A stretch of 34,313 nucleotides of DNA from a virus, in the IMG/VR virus record IMGVR_UViG_3300031578_000191, positions 1 to 34,313 of that record. One strand, 5' to 3'. Below are positions 5,814 through 34,313 of this stretch, piece by piece; position 1 is the stretch's first letter, and each line of letters begins with the position of its first letter. The position numbers and the translations under genes are program-made. Below the pieces are notes generated by a model that saw only the letters and a program-made list of their open reading frames with translations, searched no databases and was not told the origin of the DNA.

Positions 5814-5867
5814 GAAAAAGAAAAAGCCCACCCCCGCCACCCTTGCCTTGGGTGGTAGGAGCGGGCT
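5814..5867 (-). terminator. Strong intrinsic terminator upstream of the head operon
   Basis: Read on the minus strand, an arm beginning AGCCCGCTCC pairs with an arm ending GGTGGGCT to form an 18-position stem (17 pairs including wobbles, one mismatch) around a 7-nt AAGGCAA loop, followed by TTTTCTTTTT. It ends about 8 nt before the membrane protein gene. It would stop readthrough from the terminase side and also transcripts from the promoter at 6027, unless it is regulated. Confidence 0.8.
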
Positions 5868-6026: not shown

Positions 6027-6055
6027 AGCATATTTGAGTCCGCGCAGAAAGTCAA
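6027..6055 (-). promoter_or_regulatory. Sigma-70-type promoter for the head operon
   Basis: Minus-strand TTGACT, a 17-nt spacer and TATGCT. The start point would fall near 6020, giving a leader of roughly 210 nt before the first structural gene. The spacer length matches five other promoters in the window. Confidence 0.65.
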
Positions 6056-14801: not shown

Positions 14802-15154
14802 GTGATGCCCCCGGTCTGCTGGGCGGTTAAAGCTGTCACCTGTTCTAATGTATATCCGGGAGGCACATGCAAACCAAACGCATGTTGAGCGTCCTTTAAT
14901 CGGCTGATAGCAATTTCAGTTTTTGCCGCCTCATAGCCCCCCAGCCGCGCCCGCTCGATCTCGGCAACCCTGGCGGCGTCGGATTCGCGCCATTCGCGTT
15001 TGACCTCTTCCCAAAAAGCTACGGTTTCTCCGTATCTACAATCTCTTCTGTCTTCAATCAATCGAGCGCTATTATTCCCAGGATAAAGAGCCTTTAACTT
15101 TAGATTCAATTTCTTCCCGAGACGCATTATCCGGCTATTCGGCGTCGGTTGCAT
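14798..15154 (-). CDS. Hypothetical 118-residue basic protein
   Basis: Starts MQPTPNSRIMRLGKKLNLKL with an AGGAGG ribosome site; the frame is open further upstream but there shadows another gene. The middle is a charged helix (WEEVKREWRESDAARVAEIER). The first codons and ribosome site lie in a 39-bp segment repeated upstream of the sigma gene. The stop overlaps the ParB-fold start as ATGA. No family recognised. Confidence 0.65.
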   Translation of the reverse strand: MQPTPNSRIMRLGKKLNLKLKALYPGNNSARLIEDRRDCRYGETVAFWEEVKREWRESDAARVAEIERARLGGYEAAKTEIAISRLKDAQHAFGLHVPPGYTLEQVTALTAQQTGGIT

Positions 15155-15166
15155 CAGCGGCCTCCT
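15128..15166. repeat. 39-bp dispersed repeat, copy 1
   Basis: 38 of 39 positions match the segment at 21429-21467. This copy covers the end of the 315-residue gene (ADATDAE then stop) and, in another frame, the ribosome site and start MQPT of the next gene. Confidence 0.9.
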
Positions 15167-16082
15167 TCGCCGTCGCGCCGAGCATCCGGTCGCGGGCCGC
15201 CTCGGCCTGGTCGCGGTTATCATAGTCGGGCGGCGCCGGGCCGCTGTCCTCAGCCGAGAGGATTCCGTCGGCATCAGGCGCGACGGCGCGGCTGCCGTCT
15301 CCGGCAAGGTAAGCCAATCCAGCCTCAAGCTCCCCGATTCTGGCTCCCGCCAAATCCCTGATTGCCGCCTTGAGGTCTTCGCTGAAGCCATCAATGATCG
15401 GCTCGTGCCGCTTTAGTAACTCGACCAATTCCTCCATCGAGCCGCAGTCCACGAGCCGGTTCAGATACCAGGCCTCGACATCATCGGCCTTCCAGTCCGT
15501 GAAGTCCGGCACGCTCCACAGGTCGGCGGCCAGACCCGGGTCCCCATCGCTGGCCGGTTGCTCGAATATCTCGCGCTGCAGTTCCGCCGGGGCCAGCGGG
15601 CAAGTGGCGAGTATCTCCCCGGTCTCCAGCGACACCAGCCGCTTGACCCGGGCCGCGTGGTCGATCCAGACCTCGCAGGCGACGGTGGCCAGGTCGCCCT
15701 CGCGGATGCGGGAGGCCAGGGCGGAGGCGCGGTCCATCCGCTCGTCTATCCGGCCCTTGAAGTCTTTCTTGATCACTGCCAGTTCCGCCTCGAGCTCGTC
15801 GATCCGTCCGAGTACGGCCGCCAGCTCATCGGCCGTCTCGACCTTCGCCATGATGGACAGCGGGACGCGGACGTTGTGCTCCTCCGAGTCCGGCAGCTTG
15901 ACGAATGACTCCGGGACGGACTGCGGCTCTGCGGATGCGGTCGCGGTGGCCACCTCCGGTTCCTCGTCGCCGGTGGTTGCGGCCATCGGCTCGGTCTCGT
16001 TGGTCGGCGGCGTTCCCTGCTCCGGCTCCCGTTGCTGCGGGGTCGCGGTCTCTACGGTCTCCTCAGCCTTGCGCTTCCACAT
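15135..16082 (-). CDS. Hypothetical 315-residue acidic protein
   Basis: The N-terminal 65 residues are Glu/Thr/Pro-rich and probably disordered. A coiled coil (ADELAAVLGRIDELEAELAVIKKDFKGR) and a compact domain with VACEVWIDHAARVKRLVSLETGEIL follow; the C-terminus is Asp/Ala-rich. A GGGAGGAG ribosome site precedes the ATG. It lies among replication and recombination genes. I do not recognise a family. Confidence 0.7.
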   Translation of the reverse strand: MWKRKAEETVETATPQQREPEQGTPPTNETEPMAATTGDEEPEVATATASAEPQSVPESFVKLPDSEEHNVRVPLSIMAKVETADELAAVLGRIDELEAELAVIKKDFKGRIDERMDRASALASRIREGDLATVACEVWIDHAARVKRLVSLETGEILATCPLAPAELQREIFEQPASDGDPGLAADLWSVPDFTDWKADDVEAWYLNRLVDCGSMEELVELLKRHEPIIDGFSEDLKAAIRDLAGARIGELEAGLAYLAGDGSRAVAPDADGILSAEDSGPAPPDYDNRDQAEAARDRMLGATAKEAADATDAE

Positions 16083-18634: not shown

Positions 18635-18645
18635 TTAATTACCCT

Positions 18646-18725
18646 CAAGCACAAGAAAGCCCCCGGATCGGGCGGTGGAGGGCATTGGAACCCTTTGGAA
18701 CCGTCACCGGGGGCTTCTGTGCTTG
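18646..18725 (-). terminator. Large hairpin/terminator in the replication operon leader
   Basis: On the minus strand CAAGCACAGAAGCCCCCGG pairs with CCGGGGGCTTTCTTGTGCTTG (two bulged bases), enclosing about 40 nt with two GGTTCC copies. The inner stem AAGCCCCCGG/CCGGGGGCTT is followed by TCTTGTGCTT, a weak T-rich tract. It ends a few bases before the initiator start. Confidence 0.65.
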
Positions 18726-18778
18726 CCGTTGATTTTGTGGTCTCTCCAATGATTCCACCTTTGAGCCTGAGCATACAT
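18704..18778 (-). CDS. Predicted 24-residue leader peptide of the replication operon
   Basis: An ATG frame follows an AAAGGGAG ribosome site 4 nt away. The peptide is His/Trp/Arg-rich (MYAQAQRWNHWRDH and so on). Its last seven codons (GKHRSPR) cover the left arm of the downstream hairpin, and its stop sits just past that arm. A ribosome there would block the hairpin, which is the geometry of translational attenuation. Confidence 0.5.
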   Translation of the reverse strand: MYAQAQRWNHWRDHKINGKHRSPR

Positions 18779-18804
18779 CCTGCTCCCTTTCTCAGCCTGC
18801 ACCC

Positions 18805-18834
18805 AGTATAATATACCTATCCACGCCGCGTCAA
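18805..18834 (-). promoter_or_regulatory. Promoter of the replication operon
   Basis: Minus-strand TTGACG, 18-nt spacer, TATACT. The spacer shares GCGG-GGAT-GG text with the promoter at 20508. It precedes the leader peptide and hairpin. Confidence 0.5.
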
Positions 18835-19424: not shown

Positions 19425-20368
19425 CCGGGCACCTCCTTGCGGGCGAACAACTCTATGCGCTTCCCGTGAATGTAGAGCTTGTCTATGAGTTCCCGGAAAT
19501 ACTCCGGTTTCTCGGAATGAACGGCGCTCCTCTCTATTGAAATTACGCTGTCATGTAGTTCCGCCGCGTCCGGGATGCAGCTACCCCTTGTCGCCACAAG
19601 AAGCAGTTCGTGTCTGACCGAATTGTAATGGCCGGGGTTGTGCCCCACCTTGTCCCATATGAAGCTGGTCTTATATTGAAAGCCCCACGCCTCGATAACC
19701 TTGAATGAGTCCTGAAGCATAGGCGATGTAACCCAAAGAAAGAGCACGGCGTTGTCGGCGAGACTGTTCTTGATGTCGAGAGCACAAAGTTCATCAATGC
19801 TCATAGTCGAATAATGTTTCTCGGCGCGTCCGTATTGGCCGGTTATGACTCCGGCATCGGCGTATTGCCAGGGCGGGTCAGCGTAGACGACGCGGAACTT
19901 CCCTTTGATCTCGCCCGCAATAGCTTCGGCCGCCCGCTTCCGGCGGCGCACTTCCTGGCGAAGCTCGGCCCGCGTCCAGCCGTTTTGCTCGGCCAGATCA
20001 AGCAATTCGTCTTGTTCGGCTTTCGTCTCACGGCCCGCGACTTCTTTGTGATGAGACCAACTAAGAACTTCTCGCCGGCGAGAAGTTTCTATTTTGCCAG
20101 CAACCCATCCGGCATCGGCGAAAGTTTGGAAAGCAAAGCGTTCCGAATCAACAGCCTGGGCTGCCCGCTTGCCGTAAGCGTGCTCGCCATAGTGCCACCA
20201 GTCGCCGATCCACCACATGTAGCCGCTCTCGATGGCCGAAAGAGGGGCCGCTATCGCCTCCCATTGCTCGAAAGAAAGACCGGGCGGCAGTATAAGGGCC
20301 ATCCGGGTAATTTTAGTTCCGGCGGGCAAGGACAAATCCAGAGCGGATTTAGCCAGCGGATACTTCAA
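19349..20368 (-). CDS. MT-A70-family adenine methyltransferase
   Basis: A 339-residue protein. The N-terminal 155 residues form a separate helical domain (SAIESGYMWWIGDWWHYGEHAYGKR) ending in a basic helix. The catalytic part has the DPPW motif (VVYADPPWQY, 164-167), NAVLFLWVTSPML and the SAM-binding HELLLVATRG. Such enzymes methylate adenine N6 in DNA. Start: TTG, overlapping the upstream 40-residue frame as TTGA after AAAGGAGG. The C-terminal 25 residues are dual-coded with the candidate nuclease. It may protect phage DNA or pair with the nuclease. Confidence 0.85.
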   Translation of the reverse strand: MKYPLAKSALDLSLPAGTKITRMALILPPGLSFEQWEAIAAPLSAIESGYMWWIGDWWHYGEHAYGKRAAQAVDSERFAFQTFADAGWVAGKIETSRRREVLSWSHHKEVAGRETKAEQDELLDLAEQNGWTRAELRQEVRRRKRAAEAIAGEIKGKFRVVYADPPWQYADAGVITGQYGRAEKHYSTMSIDELCALDIKNSLADNAVLFLWVTSPMLQDSFKVIEAWGFQYKTSFIWDKVGHNPGHYNSVRHELLLVATRGSCIPDAAELHDSVISIERSAVHSEKPEYFRELIDKLYIHGKRIELFARKEVPGWETWGKQAGAASSSAAMKNIENTS

Positions 20369-20487
20369 TCTCGCCTCCTTTCAGGCAAAAAGAAGCCCCT
20401 GCTCCGGGCGTAGATAGCGGCGGCGACCGCTTCGGAGACCCTCGGCAGAGGCTTCAGTTTGCTCAAATCGTGGTATCTCGCCGCCAT
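20365..20487 (-). CDS. 40-residue leader-type frame before the methyltransferase
   Basis: Starts MAARYHDLSKLKPLPRVSEA after a GCAGGAGG ribosome site and only about 15 nt after the predicted transcription start. Its end passes through a terminator-like hairpin, and its stop overlaps the methyltransferase TTG. Translation of this frame would disrupt the hairpin and feed ribosomes to the methyltransferase. The peptide itself is basic with no known family. Confidence 0.55.
   Translation of the reverse strand: MAARYHDLSKLKPLPRVSEAVAAAIYARSRGFFLPERRRD
20387..20409 (-). terminator. Terminator-like hairpin inside the 40-residue frame
   Basis: Minus-strand GCCC-GGAGCAG-GGGC followed by TTCTTTTTG. 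A longer alternative stem, GAAGCCTC with GGGGCTTC (one wobble), spans more of the frame and ends in the same T-run. Confidence 0.5.
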
Positions 20488-20507
20488 ATCTACTACCTCC
20501 TGCCGTC

Positions 20508-20536
20508 AATATACGCGCCCATCCGCGCCGTGTCCA
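20508..20536 (-). promoter_or_regulatory. Promoter of the methyltransferase unit
   Basis: Minus-strand TGGACA, 17-nt spacer, TATATT. It lies between the sigma gene stop and the 40-residue frame, with the ribosome site just downstream. Confidence 0.65.
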
Positions 20537-20545
20537 GCGGTTTTT

Positions 20546-21400
20546 TCACCGGAACGCCTCCAGCCGTCCCGCCCGCGAGACGTGCCGCAGCCGCCGCAGC
20601 GCCCCGTCCCTTATCTGCCGGACCCGTTCTCGCGTAAGGTTGAGGTTCGCGCCGATCTCTTCCAGGGTGTATGTCCCGCCGCCGCCGAGGCCGTAGTAGA
20701 GCCGCAGGACCTCTCGCTCGCGGTTGGTGAGCGTCCCGAGCAGGCGCCCGAACTCCCCGGCCAGCAGGCCGGCGTCCAGCCGGTCGTCCAGATCGGGCTG
20801 CTTCCGGTCCTCGATGGCGTCCACCAGGTGCAGATCCAGCCGGAAGTCATCGTCCCCGTCCCGGTCGCATGCCGCGTCCAGCGACAAGGGTTGGCCGGAC
20901 ATGGCGAGCGCCCGGGCCAGCCTGTCCTCCCTCATCCCCATGGCCTCGGCCAGCTCGGCGAGCGACGGCTCCCGGCCCCGGCGCTGGCCGAGCCGGGCGC
21001 CGGCGCGATCAATGCGGTAGAGCTCGCCGATGCGGTGGGCGGGCATTCGGATCGTCCGCGACTGGTTGGCGACGGTCGAGCGGATCCGCGCCCGAATCCA
21101 CCAGACGGCGTAGGTGAGGAACGTCAGGCCCCGACGCTCGTCCCAGCGCCGTGCCGCCATGATCAGCCCGAGATTGCCGGCACTGATCAGGTCCAGCAGA
21201 TCAAGCCCGCGGCCCCGATAGTCCTTAGCCACTGTGACGACGAAGCGCAGGTTGGCCTCTACCAGCGCAGCCAGGGCCTCCGGGTCGCTGCTTTCGCGGA
21301 TACGCCGGCCCAGGGCGGCCTCCTCCTCGCGGCTCAACAGCGGTATCTGGCCGATCTCCCCCAGGTAGCGACGAAGGGATGCGGAATGCGGCTCCGGCAC
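20546..21400 (-). CDS. Sigma-70-family RNA polymerase sigma factor
   Basis: A 284-residue factor. Region 1.2 is YLGEIGQIPLLSREEEAALG (12-31). Region 2 runs 45-115 (ANLRFVVTVAKDYRGRGLDLLDLISAGNLGL and FLTYAVWWIRARI). Region 3 spans about 118-195. Region 4 is at 215-275 with LTNREREVLRLYYG and the HTH ANLNLTRERVRQIRDGALRRLR. It would direct RNA polymerase to promoters, plausibly the TATATT set in this window. It lacks region 1.1, like alternative factors. GTG start, 4 nt after a 16-residue frame. Complete sigma factors are uncommon in siphoviruses. Confidence 0.9.
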   Translation of the reverse strand: MPEPHSASLRRYLGEIGQIPLLSREEEAALGRRIRESSDPEALAALVEANLRFVVTVAKDYRGRGLDLLDLISAGNLGLIMAARRWDERRGLTFLTYAVWWIRARIRSTVANQSRTIRMPAHRIGELYRIDRAGARLGQRRGREPSLAELAEAMGMREDRLARALAMSGQPLSLDAACDRDGDDDFRLDLHLVDAIEDRKQPDLDDRLDAGLLAGEFGRLLGTLTNREREVLRLYYGLGGGGTYTLEEIGANLNLTRERVRQIRDGALRRLRHVSRAGRLEAFR

Positions 21401-21404
21401 GGGG

Positions 21405-21455
21405 TCAGGCCTCCCGGTCCAAACGTCGTATCCGGCTATTCAGCGTCGGTTGCAT
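21405..21455 (-). CDS. 16-residue frame directly before the sigma gene
   Basis: Encodes MQPTLNSRIRRLDREA after a TAGGAGG site. Eight of its first nine residues equal the start of the 118-residue protein at 15154 because of the shared 39-bp repeat. It may be a truncated duplicate, or an upstream frame that couples translation into the sigma GTG 4 nt later. Confidence 0.4.
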   Translation of the reverse strand: MQPTLNSRIRRLDREA

Positions 21456-21467
21456 CAGCGGCCTCCT
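21429..21467. repeat. 39-bp dispersed repeat, copy 2
   Basis: Matches 15128-15166 at 38 of 39 positions. Here the frame that ended a gene in copy 1 is closed upstream by TAG, so only the ribosome site and MQPT start remain useful. Confidence 0.9.
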
Positions 21468-21573: not shown

Positions 21574-21623
21574 TCTTTTACTATCGCCTGCAATGCTTCT
21601 TCAGCGGTCCATAGGTCACTCAC
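21570..21623 (-). CDS. 17-residue frame, possibly the first half of a split gene
   Basis: GTG frame VSDLWTAEEALQAIVKD overlapping the upstream stop as GTGA. It ends at TGA immediately after AAAGAT. See the following frame, whose TTG shares that stop. Confidence 0.4.
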   Translation of the reverse strand: MSDLWTAEEALQAIVKD

Positions 21624-21943
21624 TTTCCCGCCTCCTCTCTCAGCACCGCTTCAAGGCAGGAAAGGGCGGCGATGGTGGGGTCAGGGGCATATACTTCTTC
21701 CAGAGAGGTTGTTACATGCCTATGAGTATTGTAGTGAAAATATATGGCCCGCTCTTTCGGCACAAGCTTGCTTCTATTCCCCCAATACCAAGATATATCA
21801 CGTTCGGTTAACTCACGCAGCACATCATCCAGCGTCGGCTCCCGGAAGCCCGTGCCGTGGCAGATAGGACACCTATACTCCTCACCCTCGAAGATGCCAG
21901 GCGAGTGCTTGCGGATCGAGGCGATCAGAGCTTGACTGGTCAT
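21620..21943 (-). CDS. Hypothetical 107-residue protein with a CxxC motif
   Basis: Begins MTSQALIASIRKHSPGIFEG; YRCPICHGTGFREPT near residue 25 resembles a zinc knuckle of the CxxCxGxG type. A helical region and TSLEEVYAPDPTIAALSCLE follow. It is coupled by GTGA to the small frames before the sigma gene. Function unknown. Confidence 0.6.
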   Translation of the reverse strand: MTSQALIASIRKHSPGIFEGEEYRCPICHGTGFREPTLDDVLRELTERDISWYWGNRSKLVPKERAIYFHYNTHRHVTTSLEEVYAPDPTIAALSCLEAVLREEAGK

Positions 21944-22503: not shown

Positions 22504-22582
22504 GGGGACGGGGTAGGTATCGAACCTACAATTCCCGTGGCCATCTCGGGCGTGTTCCGGTACTATACACTTCTCCGCCCCC
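22504..22582 (-). tRNA. tRNA-like element, atypical
   Basis: On the minus strand GGGGGCGG pairs with CCGTCCCC as an 8-bp acceptor-like stem, GTGT/ACAC forms a D-arm, CCCG/CGGG an anticodon-like arm, and GTAGG-TTCGATA-CCTAC a perfect T-arm. The length of 79 nt fits. It departs from a normal tRNA: a 4-nt linker before the D-arm, a 9-nt anticodon loop (AGATGGCCA), no clean U33, and one extra base after the T-arm. It may be a degenerate tRNA or a tRNA mimic. It starts 14 nt after the rad52 stop, so it would be processed from that message. Confidence 0.35.
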
Positions 22583-22596
22583 AATTCGCTATTTAG

Positions 22597-23853
22597 TTAG
22601 AACGGCAGCCCATCGTCGTCCGCGCCCGGCTCGCGGTCCAGCCCGGCCAGCTCCCGGATTTGGGGCCGCCAGCGGGCATAGCCCTCGATGGAGTCGTCCC
22701 GGAGGTCTCGCTCAAGCTTCTGGATGATCCCCCGGCTCTGGCCTCGCGGCGGACCGCCGAGCTGCGCTTCCAGCGCGGTCTTGCGGTTGGACTCGCCGAG
22801 CAGGCTGGCGGCCTCGCAGGCCGAGCCCCAGACGGCCCAGAGGGTTTTGAGCATGTTCTCCGTCGGCGGCTTGCCATCGGCCTCCTTGTCCGGTTCCGGC
22901 TTGGCCGCGGCCTTCTCGACCGGCGCGCCCTCGCCGCCAATCTGCTTGATGAAGCGGACCGTTTCCTCAAAGCCCTCGGCCTCGTCCCGCTTTAGCTGGT
23001 CGATCAGGGCCGAGGCCCGCCACTTCGGCAGGTTGGTCAGGCTGTCGATCTGGCAATAGGCGTGGATGGCCCGCTCCTTGCCCTTGTAGTCGGCGACCCC
23101 GGCCTTCTCGCAGGCCGAGCCGAAGATCGCCCAGAGGGCCTTGCGCTGTCCCTCGGTCAGCGTTACCGGGTCGTCGCCCTCGCCGCCGGAGGACCCCCCG
23201 CCGTTCCGGGCGTCGCCGGACCGGGACCCCTGCGAAGCCGCGCCACCATTGGTCTTGGTTGCGCTGGCGTGGCCGCCGCCGTTGCTACCGGCCTCCTCGG
23301 CCCGCTCCTCATCCTGGCTGACGCCGGAGGGCAGCGCCGCCTTGAGCTTGCGAACGTCGCCGCCGGGCAGGGCGTTCTCGGGCAGTGCCGGCGGGTCCCA
23401 GCGGAACGCCTCTTTGTCTTTGGTACGGCCCCGGTAGGCACCGCCCTTGTGAACGTCGGCGAAGGCCGCGTCGAGCTTATAGAGGTAGCGGCCGATCCCC
23501 CACTGGACCGCCGCCCGCTTCATCGCACCGGACAGGCCGCCCTTGACCGGCTCGATGTCCGTGTTCTCCGCCCCGTCTTCCTTGGCGACCCACTCGCCGC
23601 TCTCCGGCCGATGGATCGAGATGATACAGACGACGCCGCCGGAGGGTCCGGCCCGGAACTCGTTTCGCCAGCCGAGCGGCCCGAACACCTCGTCAAGGCG
23701 CTCCATGATCGCCCGGTTCTGGACGTAGGGCACTACTATCGCCCAGATCGAGCCGTCGTCGCGCTTGCGGCAGGTCTGGACCTTCCACTCGATGTCCTCG
23801 GCGGGGAATGCCTCGATCAGTTTCCCCAGGTCCGGCTTCCGCTCCTCAGCCAC
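22597..23853 (-). CDS. Rad52/Rad22-type single-strand annealing protein
   Basis: A 418-residue protein. Residues 18-160 match the Rad52 core: EDIEWKVQTC, AIVVPYVQNRAIMERLDEVFGPLGWRN, GAENTDIEPVKGGLSGAMKRAAVQWGIGRYLY. It would form rings that anneal complementary single strands in phage recombination, together with the RusA resolvase. The C-terminal 220 residues hold a Gly/Ser-rich linker and two copies of a helical repeat (ALWAIFGSACEKAG and TLWAVWGSACEAAS), which is unusual. GTG start after GAGGGGG. It stands behind its own promoter and hairpin leader. Confidence 0.9.
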   Translation of the reverse strand: MAEERKPDLGKLIEAFPAEDIEWKVQTCRKRDDGSIWAIVVPYVQNRAIMERLDEVFGPLGWRNEFRAGPSGGVVCIISIHRPESGEWVAKEDGAENTDIEPVKGGLSGAMKRAAVQWGIGRYLYKLDAAFADVHKGGAYRGRTKDKEAFRWDPPALPENALPGGDVRKLKAALPSGVSQDEERAEEAGSNGGGHASATKTNGGAASQGSRSGDARNGGGSSGGEGDDPVTLTEGQRKALWAIFGSACEKAGVADYKGKERAIHAYCQIDSLTNLPKWRASALIDQLKRDEAEGFEETVRFIKQIGGEGAPVEKAAAKPEPDKEADGKPPTENMLKTLWAVWGSACEAASLLGESNRKTALEAQLGGPPRGQSRGIIQKLERDLRDDSIEGYARWRPQIRELAGLDREPGADDDGLPF

Positions 23854-24017
23854 GGAAAGCCCCCTCTCTCAAAAAAGGATAGGGCCCCGACTTGCGCCGA
23901 GGCCCCCGGCGCGGCGGTCGCACGGAGGAGTGGAGGCAGAACCGTGCTCACGCTCGCGTTTTTGATGGTCTTGATTTTGCAGTCTTCCGGCAAGGGTTCC
24001 ACTCCTTTTTCAGCCAC
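23817..24017 (-). CDS. Leader frame running through the hairpin into rad52
   Basis: An open frame of up to 66 codons starting at GTG (MAEKGVEPLPEDCKIKTIKN) or at TTG eight nt after a GGAG site. It reads through the terminator hairpin and ends 37 nt inside rad52. Composition is not convincing as a stable protein, so it may serve only as translated leader. An alternative is that it is chance and the RNA is untranslated. Confidence 0.3.
   Translation of the reverse strand: MAEKGVEPLPEDCKIKTIKNASVSTVLPPLLRATAAPGASAQVGALSFFERGGFPWLRSGSRTWGN
23871..23905 (-). terminator. Intrinsic terminator with GCAA tetraloop before rad52
   Basis: On the minus strand an arm GGGCCTCGGC pairs with GTCGGGGCCC (10 pairs, two wobbles) around a GCAA GNRA tetraloop. 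TATCC then TTTTTT follow. It ends about 18 nt before the rad52 start, so it would stop transcripts from the promoter at 24022 unless it is opened. Confidence 0.7.
23927..24005 (-). ncRNA. Structured leader RNA of rad52
   Basis: GGAGTGG and CCACTCC at the two ends pair perfectly, with AACC/GGTT just inside and a CTTG/CAAG helix within. This closed multi-branch shape lies between the promoter and the GCAA terminator, the usual layout of a cis-acting RNA switch. No known riboswitch class was recognised. Confidence 0.35.
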
Positions 24018-24021
24018 CTAC

Positions 24022-24050
24022 AATATAGGGACCGGACGGCCTCCGGTCCA
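24022..24050 (-). promoter_or_regulatory. Promoter of the rad52 leader
   Basis: Minus-strand TGGACC, 17-nt spacer, TATATT. The spacer contains an inverted GGACCGGAGGCC/CCGGTCC pattern that could be an operator. It lies just past the end of the small membrane protein gene. Confidence 0.65.
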
Positions 24051-24065
24051 GCCTTTTCTCCGGCC

Positions 24066-25694: not shown

Positions 25695-26357
25695 TCATGC
25701 TCCTTCCAGATAATCAATGAGTCGCGTGAATTGCCAAGAATTTTCAGCGTCCCCTGCGGCGTCCCCTGTGGCGTCCCCTGCGGCGTCCCCTGTGGCGTCC
25801 CCTGCGGCGGCCCATGTGGCGGCCCATGCGGCGTCCCCTGTGGCGTCCCCTGCGGCGGCCCCTGCGGCGGCCCATGCGGCGGCCCCTGCGGCGGCCCCTG
25901 CGGCGGTCCCTGCGGCGGTCCCTGCGGCGTCTAATTGTTCCTTATCAATTTCACCATGCGCGAACCGCCGGGCCGCCTCAATGGCTCGCGCCGGACGATC
26001 ATCACCAGGATATTTCGCTGTCCACAGATGCAGGACGTGCTCGGCGCAATCGGCGGCGAATAGTCGGATCGCGCGCGGCCCCATCGCCTGCCGGATCAGC
26101 CGCGCTTGGCTGAACACGTGCTTATTGCCGCCATGCTCGACGTGCTCTCCGCGCCCCTCGGCCAGATAAATGTAGTCGCCTTGCAGCCATTGGAGTATAT
26201 CTTTGGCCTCGACAAGGTGATAACCGCGCTTACATGGGATGATGTTTCGGAGCCGGGGCATCCAGCGACCGGGCCGCTTACCCTTCGGTAGATGCCACGC
26301 GCCGGAGCCGCCGTTGCAGGGCTCTCCATCCGCGTTCAGTATCTTGTAGTAATTCAT
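25695..26357 (-). CDS. Two-part protein: Cys-containing N-terminal domain and Ala/Gly/Asp repeat tail
   Basis: A 220-residue protein. Residues 1-140 form a small domain (MNYYKILNADGEPCNGG, IIPCKRGYHLVEAKDILQWL, YIYLAEGRGE) resembling a widespread uncharacterised phage/bacterial family that I can only name loosely (DUF7666-like). Residues 145-205 are repeats of AAGDATGD and AAGAAAWA type encoded by a GC minisatellite. It ends in SWQFTRLIDYLEGA. It may be a structural repeat helix. Start: ATG coupled as ATGA to the HTH gene. Confidence 0.65.
   Translation of the reverse strand: MNYYKILNADGEPCNGGSGAWHLPKGKRPGRWMPRLRNIIPCKRGYHLVEAKDILQWLQGDYIYLAEGRGEHVEHGGNKHVFSQARLIRQAMGPRAIRLFAADCAEHVLHLWTAKYPGDDRPARAIEAARRFAHGEIDKEQLDAAGTAAGTAAGAAAGAAAWAAAGAAAGDATGDAAWAATWAAAGDATGDAAGDATGDAAGDAENSWQFTRLIDYLEGA
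25748..25930. repeat. GC minisatellite inside the repeat protein gene
   Basis: About 180 bp of 12-bp and 6-bp units built from GGCGTCCCCTGY and GGCGGCCCCTGC (plus strand). All changes keep the minus-strand frame as Ala/Gly/Asp/Thr/Trp codons, so it evolves by slippage in multiples of 3. Confidence 0.9.
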
Positions 26358-26596: not shown

Positions 26597-26625
26597 AATA
26601 TATATCATCCCGGACAGATTGTCCA
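26597..26625 (-). promoter_or_regulatory. Promoter of the early operon
   Basis: Minus-strand TGGACA, 17-nt spacer, TATATT, with A-rich runs just upstream that would act as an UP element (the T-rich stretch at 26627-26656 on the plus strand). A GGACAGATTGTCC palindrome (plus strand, 26612-26624) overlaps the -35 and is a natural operator candidate. Confidence 0.75.
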
Positions 26626-33110: not shown

Positions 33111-34025
33111 TCAGTCCACCCCCGAGGATTCGGTTTCGATGGGAACGGCCAGGAAGCCCCCGAAATTGGCCTTGTTGTCCGCCGACGGCCCCGAGGCCGT
33201 ATTGTGCGCACAGGTGTTGTAGAGTTTGGTGCAACCCTTATAGAGCGTCCAAGTATCATTCTCGGCCGGAGTCACGGCGGCCCCGGCGTCGGTCTGTAGC
33301 GGCAGCTGCCAGATGATTTTATCGCTTGACGCCGTAAAACTATAGACAGTCCGAGTAAGGGTCTTTCCGATGGAAGCTATTGTTATCTCGATGATTCCCT
33401 CATTCCAATAGCCATTGATATCGACAATTTGAGAGTCCGTAAGCTGCGTTGAGGAACAGCCGGCGGCGTCGGCTGCGTTCAGTGTCCCAGTGCGCTTCAT
33501 CGGCGCGATCGCCACGTCGGTCAGGTCTGCATAGCCATCGGCGTTGCACTCGGTCCCGCCGAAGCGCCAGCCGCAGAGCTGCGAAAACTTCCGGCCGGTC
33601 CACTTGCGGGCGATCCCCTTGTCCTCGGACGCCCGGATGGCCAGCCAGGTGTCGTCGAGGCCGGCCGAGTTGATCCAGCCGTCGAAGACCAGCTCGAAGT
33701 CGTTATCGCCGAGGTCGTCGGTGAATACGCGGCGGATGATGAGCTTGCAGAGCGTGAGCTGGCTGTACCAGACGTAGGCCGTCATGTCGCCCGACACGTT
33801 GTCGAGCCGGAGTTGGGCGGTCTGCGGCTGGTCCTCAAGCATCTGGACCGGGCCGACGACCATGGCCTTGGCCGTCCAGGTCTGGCCGGAATTCCAGGTT
33901 GTGTCGTCCTTGCCGGAGCAGAAATAGATGGTCCCCTGCTCAAGCTGGATTTCCACCAGCCAGACGGGCTTCTTGGCCGCCGCCTTTATCTGCGTCAGGT
34001 AGTCCGCGCTCAGTGATTTGGCCAT
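33111..34025 (-). CDS. Tail-assembly protein of the BR0599/DUF2163 type
   Basis: A 304-residue protein. Family marks are FSQLCGWRFGGTECNADGY near residue 155 and the C-terminal YKGCTKLYNTCAHN and NFGGFLAVP. The N-terminus MAKSLSADYLTQIKAAAKKP and VWLVEIQLEQGTIYF fit. Such proteins sit at the tail tip just before the gpJ-like hub in gene-transfer-agent and siphovirus clusters, as here. GAGGT site before the ATG. Confidence 0.85.
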   Translation of the reverse strand: MAKSLSADYLTQIKAAAKKPVWLVEIQLEQGTIYFCSGKDDTTWNSGQTWTAKAMVVGPVQMLEDQPQTAQLRLDNVSGDMTAYVWYSQLTLCKLIIRRVFTDDLGDNDFELVFDGWINSAGLDDTWLAIRASEDKGIARKWTGRKFSQLCGWRFGGTECNADGYADLTDVAIAPMKRTGTLNAADAAGCSSTQLTDSQIVDINGYWNEGIIEITIASIGKTLTRTVYSFTASSDKIIWQLPLQTDAGAAVTPAENDTWTLYKGCTKLYNTCAHNTASGPSADNKANFGGFLAVPIETESSGVD

Positions 34026-34050
34026 GTTTTAAAATTTACCTCATGCTGGA

Positions 34051-34143
34051 TTAAATTTCTCCACGAGTTCGTTTTTTTACCCACGTTTTGAAATCTTCCT
34101 CACGCAAAGCTAAATTTGCTTTTGCTCTCGTTTTTTTACCCAC
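34051..34143 (-). CDS. 30-residue frame across the first array unit
   Basis: GTG frame encoding VGKKTRAKANLALREEDFKT and a basic end (WVKKRTRGEI). It resembles a helical basic peptide. Units further out each contain a GTG and give a closely related 30-residue frame with a different end. It may be the 3' end of an upstream tail gene distorted by the repeat. Confidence 0.3.
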   Translation of the reverse strand: MGKKTRAKANLALREEDFKTWVKKRTRGEI

Positions 34144-34313
34144 GTTTTGAAATCTTCCTCACGCAAAGCTAAATTTGCTTTTGCTCTCGTTTTTTTACCC
34201 ACGTTTTGAAATCTTCCTCACGCAAAGCTAAATTTGCTTTTGCTCTCGTTTTTTTACCCACGTTTTGAAATCTTCCTCACGCAAAGCTAAATTTGCTTTT
34301 GCTCTCGTTTTTT
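34079..34313. repeat. 59-bp tandem array at the right edge
   Basis: Four units with exact 59-bp period, the last truncated by the edge, and one diverged copy at 34025-34078. AT-rich, each with a GAGGAAG site and GTG on the minus strand. Exact identity at a contig end also fits an assembly loop. Confidence 0.85.

Follow-up and report, generated by a model that had tools for sequence, protein, structure and literature searches.

Does the stretch in front of the Rad52/Erf-type annealing gene of an uncultured phage encode a regulatory RNA, and if so, of which kind? The gene lies in the virus record IMGVR_UViG_3300031578_000191, which was analysed over its full 34,313 bases (the window) and in which the confidently called genes are all on the minus strand. 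The leader feature runs from 24060 to 23853 on that strand. Reading from 24060 towards 23800, GAGAAAAGGC, TGGACC, a 17-nt spacer and TATATT are followed by AAAAAGGAG, a TTG codon 8 nt further on, the arms AGGAGTGGA and TCCACTCCT, and a GCAA-looped hairpin; TATCC, TTTTTT, GAGAGAGGGGG and the GTG start codon of the annealing gene complete the series (Table 1). A sequence-only reading of this DNA had described a promoter, a closed multi-helix RNA and a terminator preceding an annealing gene, in the layout of a riboswitch or attenuator. The promoter, the GCAA hairpin and the annealing gene hold good, and the closed multi-helix RNA proved the weak part of that description.

Over window positions 1-20481, a second assembly of the phage (IMGVR_UViG_3300031673_000376) shows 100% identity; it stops short of rad52 and reaches 7,231 bases past window position 1. 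Several repeats occur in the record. A 59-nt tandem repeat (34010-34304; about four copies and one diverged) is found at its very end, and approximately 14 tandem 12-nt units of the GCGTCCCCTGCG type (25723-25950) lie in an Imm5-like immunity-protein gene (25695-26357). A 39-nt repeat is present twice (15128-15166 and 21429-21467; 97% identity): gene 15135-16082 overlaps with the first copy at its 3' end, and the second copy maps just upstream of a gene for a sigma-70-family factor featuring regions 1.2, 2, 3 and 4 (20546-21400, minus strand), which is in turn directly upstream of the MT-A70 module described below.

Table 1 Features of the rad52 leader and of related sites in the window.
Feature	Position	Strand	Details
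rad52 promoter	24022..24060	-	Upstream GAGAAAAGGC; -35 TGGACC (24050-24045); 17-nt spacer; -10 TATATT (24027-24022)
Perfect palindrome GGACCGGA-GGCCG-TCCGGTCC	24029..24049	-	8-bp arms, 100% complementary; spans -35 to spacer
SD-like AAAAAGGAG at leader 5' end	24002..24010	-	8 nt ahead of TTG codon
5' arm AGGAGTGGA of closing helix	23998..24006	-	Overlaps leader Shine-Dalgarno site
Possible leader ORF MPEDCKIKTIKNASVSTVLPPLLRATAAPGASAQVGALSFFERGGFPWLRSGSRTWGN	23817..23993	-	TTG start, 58 codons; longer form from 24017
Competing GCACGG/CCGTGC hairpin	23947-23920	-	
3' arm TCCACTCCT of closing helix	23926..23934	-	Sits in loop of competing GCACGG/CCGTGC hairpin
Part of 3' arm, UCCACUCC	23934-23927	-	
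Early hairpin over GCGCCGGGGGCCTCGGCGC	23894..23912	-	-13.1 kcal/mol; complete before terminator 3' arm
Terminator-like hairpin GGGCCTCGGC-GCAA-GTCGGGGCCC	23905-23882	-	Followed by TATCC and TTTTTT (23876-23871)
SD-like GAGAGAGGGGG ahead of rad52	23870-23860	-	
rad52/erf-type ssDNA annealing gene	22597..23853	-	418 aa, GTG start; PF04098, phrog_1097, alignment
MT-A70 methylase module	20369..20536	-	Promoter 20536-20508; ATG sORF 20487-20365
MT-A70 terminator	20455-20392	-	11-bp base stem and TTTTT, then SD, TTG 20368; z = -3.8
DnaD-like gene module	18635..18834	-	Promoter 18834-18805; ATG sORF 18778-18704; next start 18634
DnaD terminator	18717-18656	-	T-rich tail (TTTCTTG); z = -4.0
Fourth hairpin with T-run	5815..5865	-	Directly before gene start 5806; z = -4.2

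The promoter, for which the sequence-only reading stated no strand, is confirmed on the minus strand and is supported by a family of similar sites. The pattern T[TG]GACA-N17-TATATT matches the minus strand at 26625, 20536 and 13478 (12/12 each) and at 24050 and 11953 (11/12 each), and a weaker sixth member, with an 18-nt spacer, is found on the same strand at 18834. These five matches of at least 11/12 compare with 0.025 expected in Markov sequences for both strands together; the plus strand of the window carries no family site at this level. An A-rich tract lies just 5' of several family promoters. A promoter call at 6055 falls within a small gene and was discarded. A phage-encoded sigma factor may read the family promoters, though their hexamers are those of ordinary sigma-70. 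The palindrome in the rad52 promoter is possibly an operator; for a common operator of the form GGAC-N-GTCC, enrichment was not clear. The promoters at 20536-20508 and 18834-18805 (minus strand) have a spacer element, CGGCGYGGATRGG, in common between the -35 and -10 hexamers, which may be the site of a regulator.

The product of the annealing gene matches PF04098 (Rad52_Rad22; E = 2.8e-15) and phrog_1097, an Erf-like annealing PHROG (E = 3.7e-65), and the gene had thus been named correctly. The alignment of this product with Sf6 and other phage proteins extends almost to its N-terminus, so that the assigned start (23853) can be regarded as sound. Directly downstream of the gene lies a tRNA-like element (22504-22580, minus strand) in which the acceptor has 7 bp (GGGGGCG/CGTCCCC) and the T-arm is perfect (GTAGG-TTCGATA-CCTAC). 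A tRNA call by ARAGORN (Pro, tgg) is obtained solely at a relaxed threshold, and the Rfam tRNA-Sec score of the element, 19.6 bits, is below the cut-off; it may be a phage tRNA that has decayed or is of an odd type.

A leader in this place is unusual. Rad52 protein and alignment scans of IMG/VR, GTDB genomes and phage records yielded 168 rad52 loci; the upstream gene could be placed in 153, whose gaps have a median of 7 nt and exceed 100 nt in only 10 cases. By the criteria used, three of these 153 loci have a hairpin with a run of at least four T residues within 220 nt upstream of rad52. Searches for homologues of the leader by blastn and nhmmer over all fetched rad52 loci, by blastn in phage records and by exact pattern in IMG/VR retrieved nothing convincing.

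The hairpin ahead of rad52 is confirmed, on the minus strand, with a stem of 10-11 bp, a GNRA (GCAA) loop and the TTTTTT run, and it ends 28 nt ahead of the gene. Its predicted energy is about -20 to -22.7 kcal/mol (z = -2.3, 5 of 200 shuffles being equally good), and among the hairpins of the window that precede a run of at least five T residues only one is stronger. The T6 run begins 5 nt after the stem, from which it is separated by TATCC, and a d'Aubenton-Carafa-type score is +2.2 or -11.9, according to the choice of stem end. As an intrinsic terminator the hairpin is therefore borderline: its stability is in favour of the proposed role, but the offset of the run and the score are not. In predicted folds, it is mutually exclusive with the early hairpin, a candidate anti-terminator that is GC-rich and so may have arisen by chance.

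Further evidence comes from the rest of the genome. A scan for terminators (stems of at least 8 pairs, long loops allowed, T-rich tail) gave seven minus-strand hits at six distinct sites, all intergenic, Markov sequences giving 1-6 per strand. Four of these six sites end 14-28 nt before a start codon, namely those of rad52, the MT-A70 and DnaD-like genes and gene 5806. The two others (26735-26690 and 13637-13586) each precede a family promoter and have the appearance of operon-end terminators. The hairpin ahead of gene 5806, with its very strong 16-bp stem and CTTTTTCTTTTT directly ahead of the gene's SD, comes after a small gene (6098-5919), has no family promoter just upstream and is possibly an ordinary intercistronic terminator. 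In the rad52, MT-A70 and DnaD modules, 53-116 nt separate a family promoter from the hairpin that follows it, and the terminator ends 24-28 nt before the gene, with no family promoter between. Three of six promoters with a downstream terminator is not significant alone (P = 0.07 within intergenic space).

The leaders are also related in sequence, which is stronger evidence than their position. When the rad52 leader is compared with the whole genome, the DnaD leader is its highest-scoring match other than itself (62, against 49 for the next), with a dinucleotide-shuffle p of about 2e-5. The MT-A70 leader, over nearly its full length and with its promoter, matches the DnaD leader (score 69, p about 2e-6), which scores at most 37 against the sequences ahead of 44 other genes. 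Both p values were obtained with permissive scoring and both members shuffled; strict gap scoring gives only 0.03-0.04. Between the rad52 and MT-A70 leaders there is no direct match (p = 0.12). An alignment of the MT-A70 and DnaD terminators covers both completely (64 columns). All 11 bp of the base stem are paired in each of them, and the two stems differ by two double-sided and two one-sided changes that are compatible with pairing, none of which breaks a pair; a pair-shuffle control of this two-sequence covariation was not significant (67/500). The alignment supports, rather than proves, a hairpin common to the two. A palindrome, AACTTCTCGCCGGCGAGAAGTT, occurs at 20059-20094 within the MT-A70 methylase gene.

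The layout recurs at two further genes in related sequence, and an attenuator is the best available reading of it. We give roughly even chances that the rad52 leader is a phage transcription attenuator, the MT-A70 and DnaD modules being its relatives within the genome.

The hairpin and U-run might act instead on translation initiation, the hairpin insulating the rad52 ribosome site and the TTTTTT before GAGAGAGGGGG serving as a U-rich standby or S1 site rather than as part of a terminator. Runs of five or six T residues lie 9-19 nt ahead of three start codons (rad52, MT-A70 and 5806), each directly followed by an SD, and the offset U-run and borderline score at rad52 point in the same direction. 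The related MT-A70 and DnaD hairpins, however, have terminator-like U-tracts that begin 0-1 nt after the stem, and the two other hairpins of the set are placed upstream of promoters, where operon-end terminators belong; we consider the translational reading unlikely.

The unit could also be a stand-alone, trans-acting phage sRNA of about 140 nt, reaching from the promoter at 24050 to the hairpin, with rad52 as a mere neighbour that is read from upstream. Promoter and terminator indeed enclose a discrete unit of 140 nt, and related units are found at two further places. In Rfam 15, the window has no match at gathering score, and the earlier statement that no known class fits is true at these thresholds; a sub-threshold search gave a hit with E = 0.0074 in 21 kb. 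The sole notable hint, BjrC68 (RF02353), is an sRNA, but it scores 25.5 bits against a cut-off of 39 and its match, which we rejected, is driven by the GCAA terminator hairpin. Moreover, the spacing of terminator and gene in the three modules, uninterrupted by any family promoter, fits control in cis better, and an independent sRNA appears quite improbable.

Under the attenuator reading, RNA polymerase would initiate at about 24015 from a sigma-70-type promoter that the phage uses repeatedly, and would make a leader of about 140 nt before meeting the GC-rich hairpin and its U-run 28 nt before rad52. Some transcripts would stop there, and the remainder would read through into rad52. We infer that termination at the hairpin occurs and is adjustable. 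Since no promoter-like site is present between the hairpin and the gene, expression of rad52 would depend on read-through, either from this promoter or from one upstream. The most likely means of control would be the loading of a ribosome at the AGGAG/TTG site of the leader, other signals being possible: a ribosome trailing the polymerase would prevent the hairpin from forming, while a helix between AGGAGUGGA and UCCACUCCU would mask the site and favour termination. Control by an antitermination protein of the phage or of its host, or a fixed level of partial termination, would fit almost as well.

Translation of the leader is attractive on two grounds. A predicted alternative fold masks the SD or start codon in both the rad52 and MT-A70 leaders; in the latter, the terminator (-45.4) and the alternative fold that hides the sORF start (-44.8) are near isoenergetic. 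In addition, suppression of nearby intrinsic terminators by translating ribosomes has been shown in E. coli (PMC4824070; PMC5021804). Such suppression in the rad52 leader is not assured, because PMC4824070 also reports efficient function of terminators that lie no more than 100 bp into a coding region. In all three leaders the promoter is closely followed by an SD and a start codon (TTG 23993, ATG 20487 and ATG 18778), which behind the promoters at 20536 and 18834 stand at about the distance seen in the rad52 leader. The rad52 leader ORF extends through the terminator and ends within rad52. Its codon score is weakly above the intergenic null (p about 0.03); for the three leader ORFs, p values of 0.03, 0.16 and 0.44 indicate a weak or absent signal. 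As codon scores are weak and homologues of the rad52 leader ORF were not found in the collections searched, we treat leader translation as hypothetical.

These ORFs invite another explanation, in which a moron-like cassette consisting of a promoter, a real small gene and a terminator was inserted before rad52. The SD and start codon behind each of the three promoters and the codon score of the rad52 leader ORF are what such a cassette would show. Yet the ORF crosses the terminator in the rad52 and MT-A70 modules, and in the former ends inside the gene; with no homologues of the rad52 leader ORF in the collections searched and no codon signal in the other two, a genuine small gene is very unlikely.

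The closed multi-helix RNA is a different matter. Its GGAGTGG/CCACTCC ends lie within an inverted repeat that matches perfectly over 9 bp, with 63 nt between the arms, and the resulting closing helix has a predicted pairing probability of 0.55-0.74. The perfect helix thus stands, but the enclosed domain is no stabler than shuffled sequence (z = -0.3 to -1.0). The pre-terminator transcript has a z of +0.5 and the whole leader region one of -1.7, and in the full leader fold, the GCACGG/CCGTGC hairpin displaces the closing helix. The helix and the rad52 terminator can both form; the helix is, therefore, not a classical anti-terminator. As it overlaps AGGAG, it could hide the leader ribosome site. 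Taking GGAGTGG/CCACTCC as the acceptor of a tRNA or tRNA-like structure was rejected, as ARAGORN finds none here by default or at the relaxed -ps90 setting. A riboswitch in which the closed domain would bind a ligand as aptamer is highly improbable: the order of domain and terminator and the perfect closing helix suit it, but the domain is not unusually stable, its helix is not exclusive with the terminator, no Rfam class matches at gathering score and no conserved leader is seen at the 168 rad52 loci.

If termination is real and regulated, related leader switches would gate three DNA-metabolism genes of this phage and would provide a defined three-member set for testing the timing of early expression in an uncultured phage. 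Otherwise, this would be a promising single leader, still better explained by its relatives in the genome than by a new riboswitch class. A more ambitious and doubtful view is that a duplicated cassette (promoter, leader with ribosome site, terminator) fronts recombination, DNA-methylation and replication genes, and that antitermination in response to a single factor or condition opens all three; they would then be a phage regulon controlled at the level of the leader RNA, with an undescribed leader family.

Ribosome-controlled transcription attenuators with a leader ORF, of the trp, his and mgtCBR type, are similar: their leader lies close to the promoter, contains a short ORF, can adopt alternative folds and has an intrinsic terminator shortly ahead of the structural gene. 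Unlike these, the rad52 leader shows no regulatory codon runs and its closing helix is not exclusive with the terminator; since the ORF crosses the terminator, a ribosome should suppress it rather than choose between two folds. In phage lambda, late control at PR'-tR' works by Q antitermination. The PR' and tR' arrangement (described in PMC4604602) likewise consists of a phage sigma-70 promoter, a short leader and an intrinsic terminator, followed by genes that need read-through, whereas here three modules are found, before early-type genes. A Q gene was not identified; a 107-aa ORF (21620-21943) matches a Q-like PHROG weakly (17 bits, E = 0.0068) and has a weak YmcF-like Pfam match. The start-associated and extended start-associated sequences (SAS/ESAS) of Cluster K mycobacteriophages, repeats with inverted repeats directly 5' of the start codons of a subset of genes (PMC3203893), are comparable as repeated elements directly before the starts of some genes in one phage genome, but SAS is a conserved 13-bp repeat, while the part shared by the three copies in the present phage consists of a promoter and a leader that has diverged and carries a U-tract. 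BjrC68, an sRNA of Bradyrhizobiaceae, has a GCAA-looped, GC-rich terminator with a split U-tract as well; at its sub-cut-off score, the likeness is essentially that of the terminator alone. The best supported view is that of a promoter-proximal attenuator among three related modules; phage leader attenuators are a known kind, and the most interesting aspect of this one is its family within the genome.
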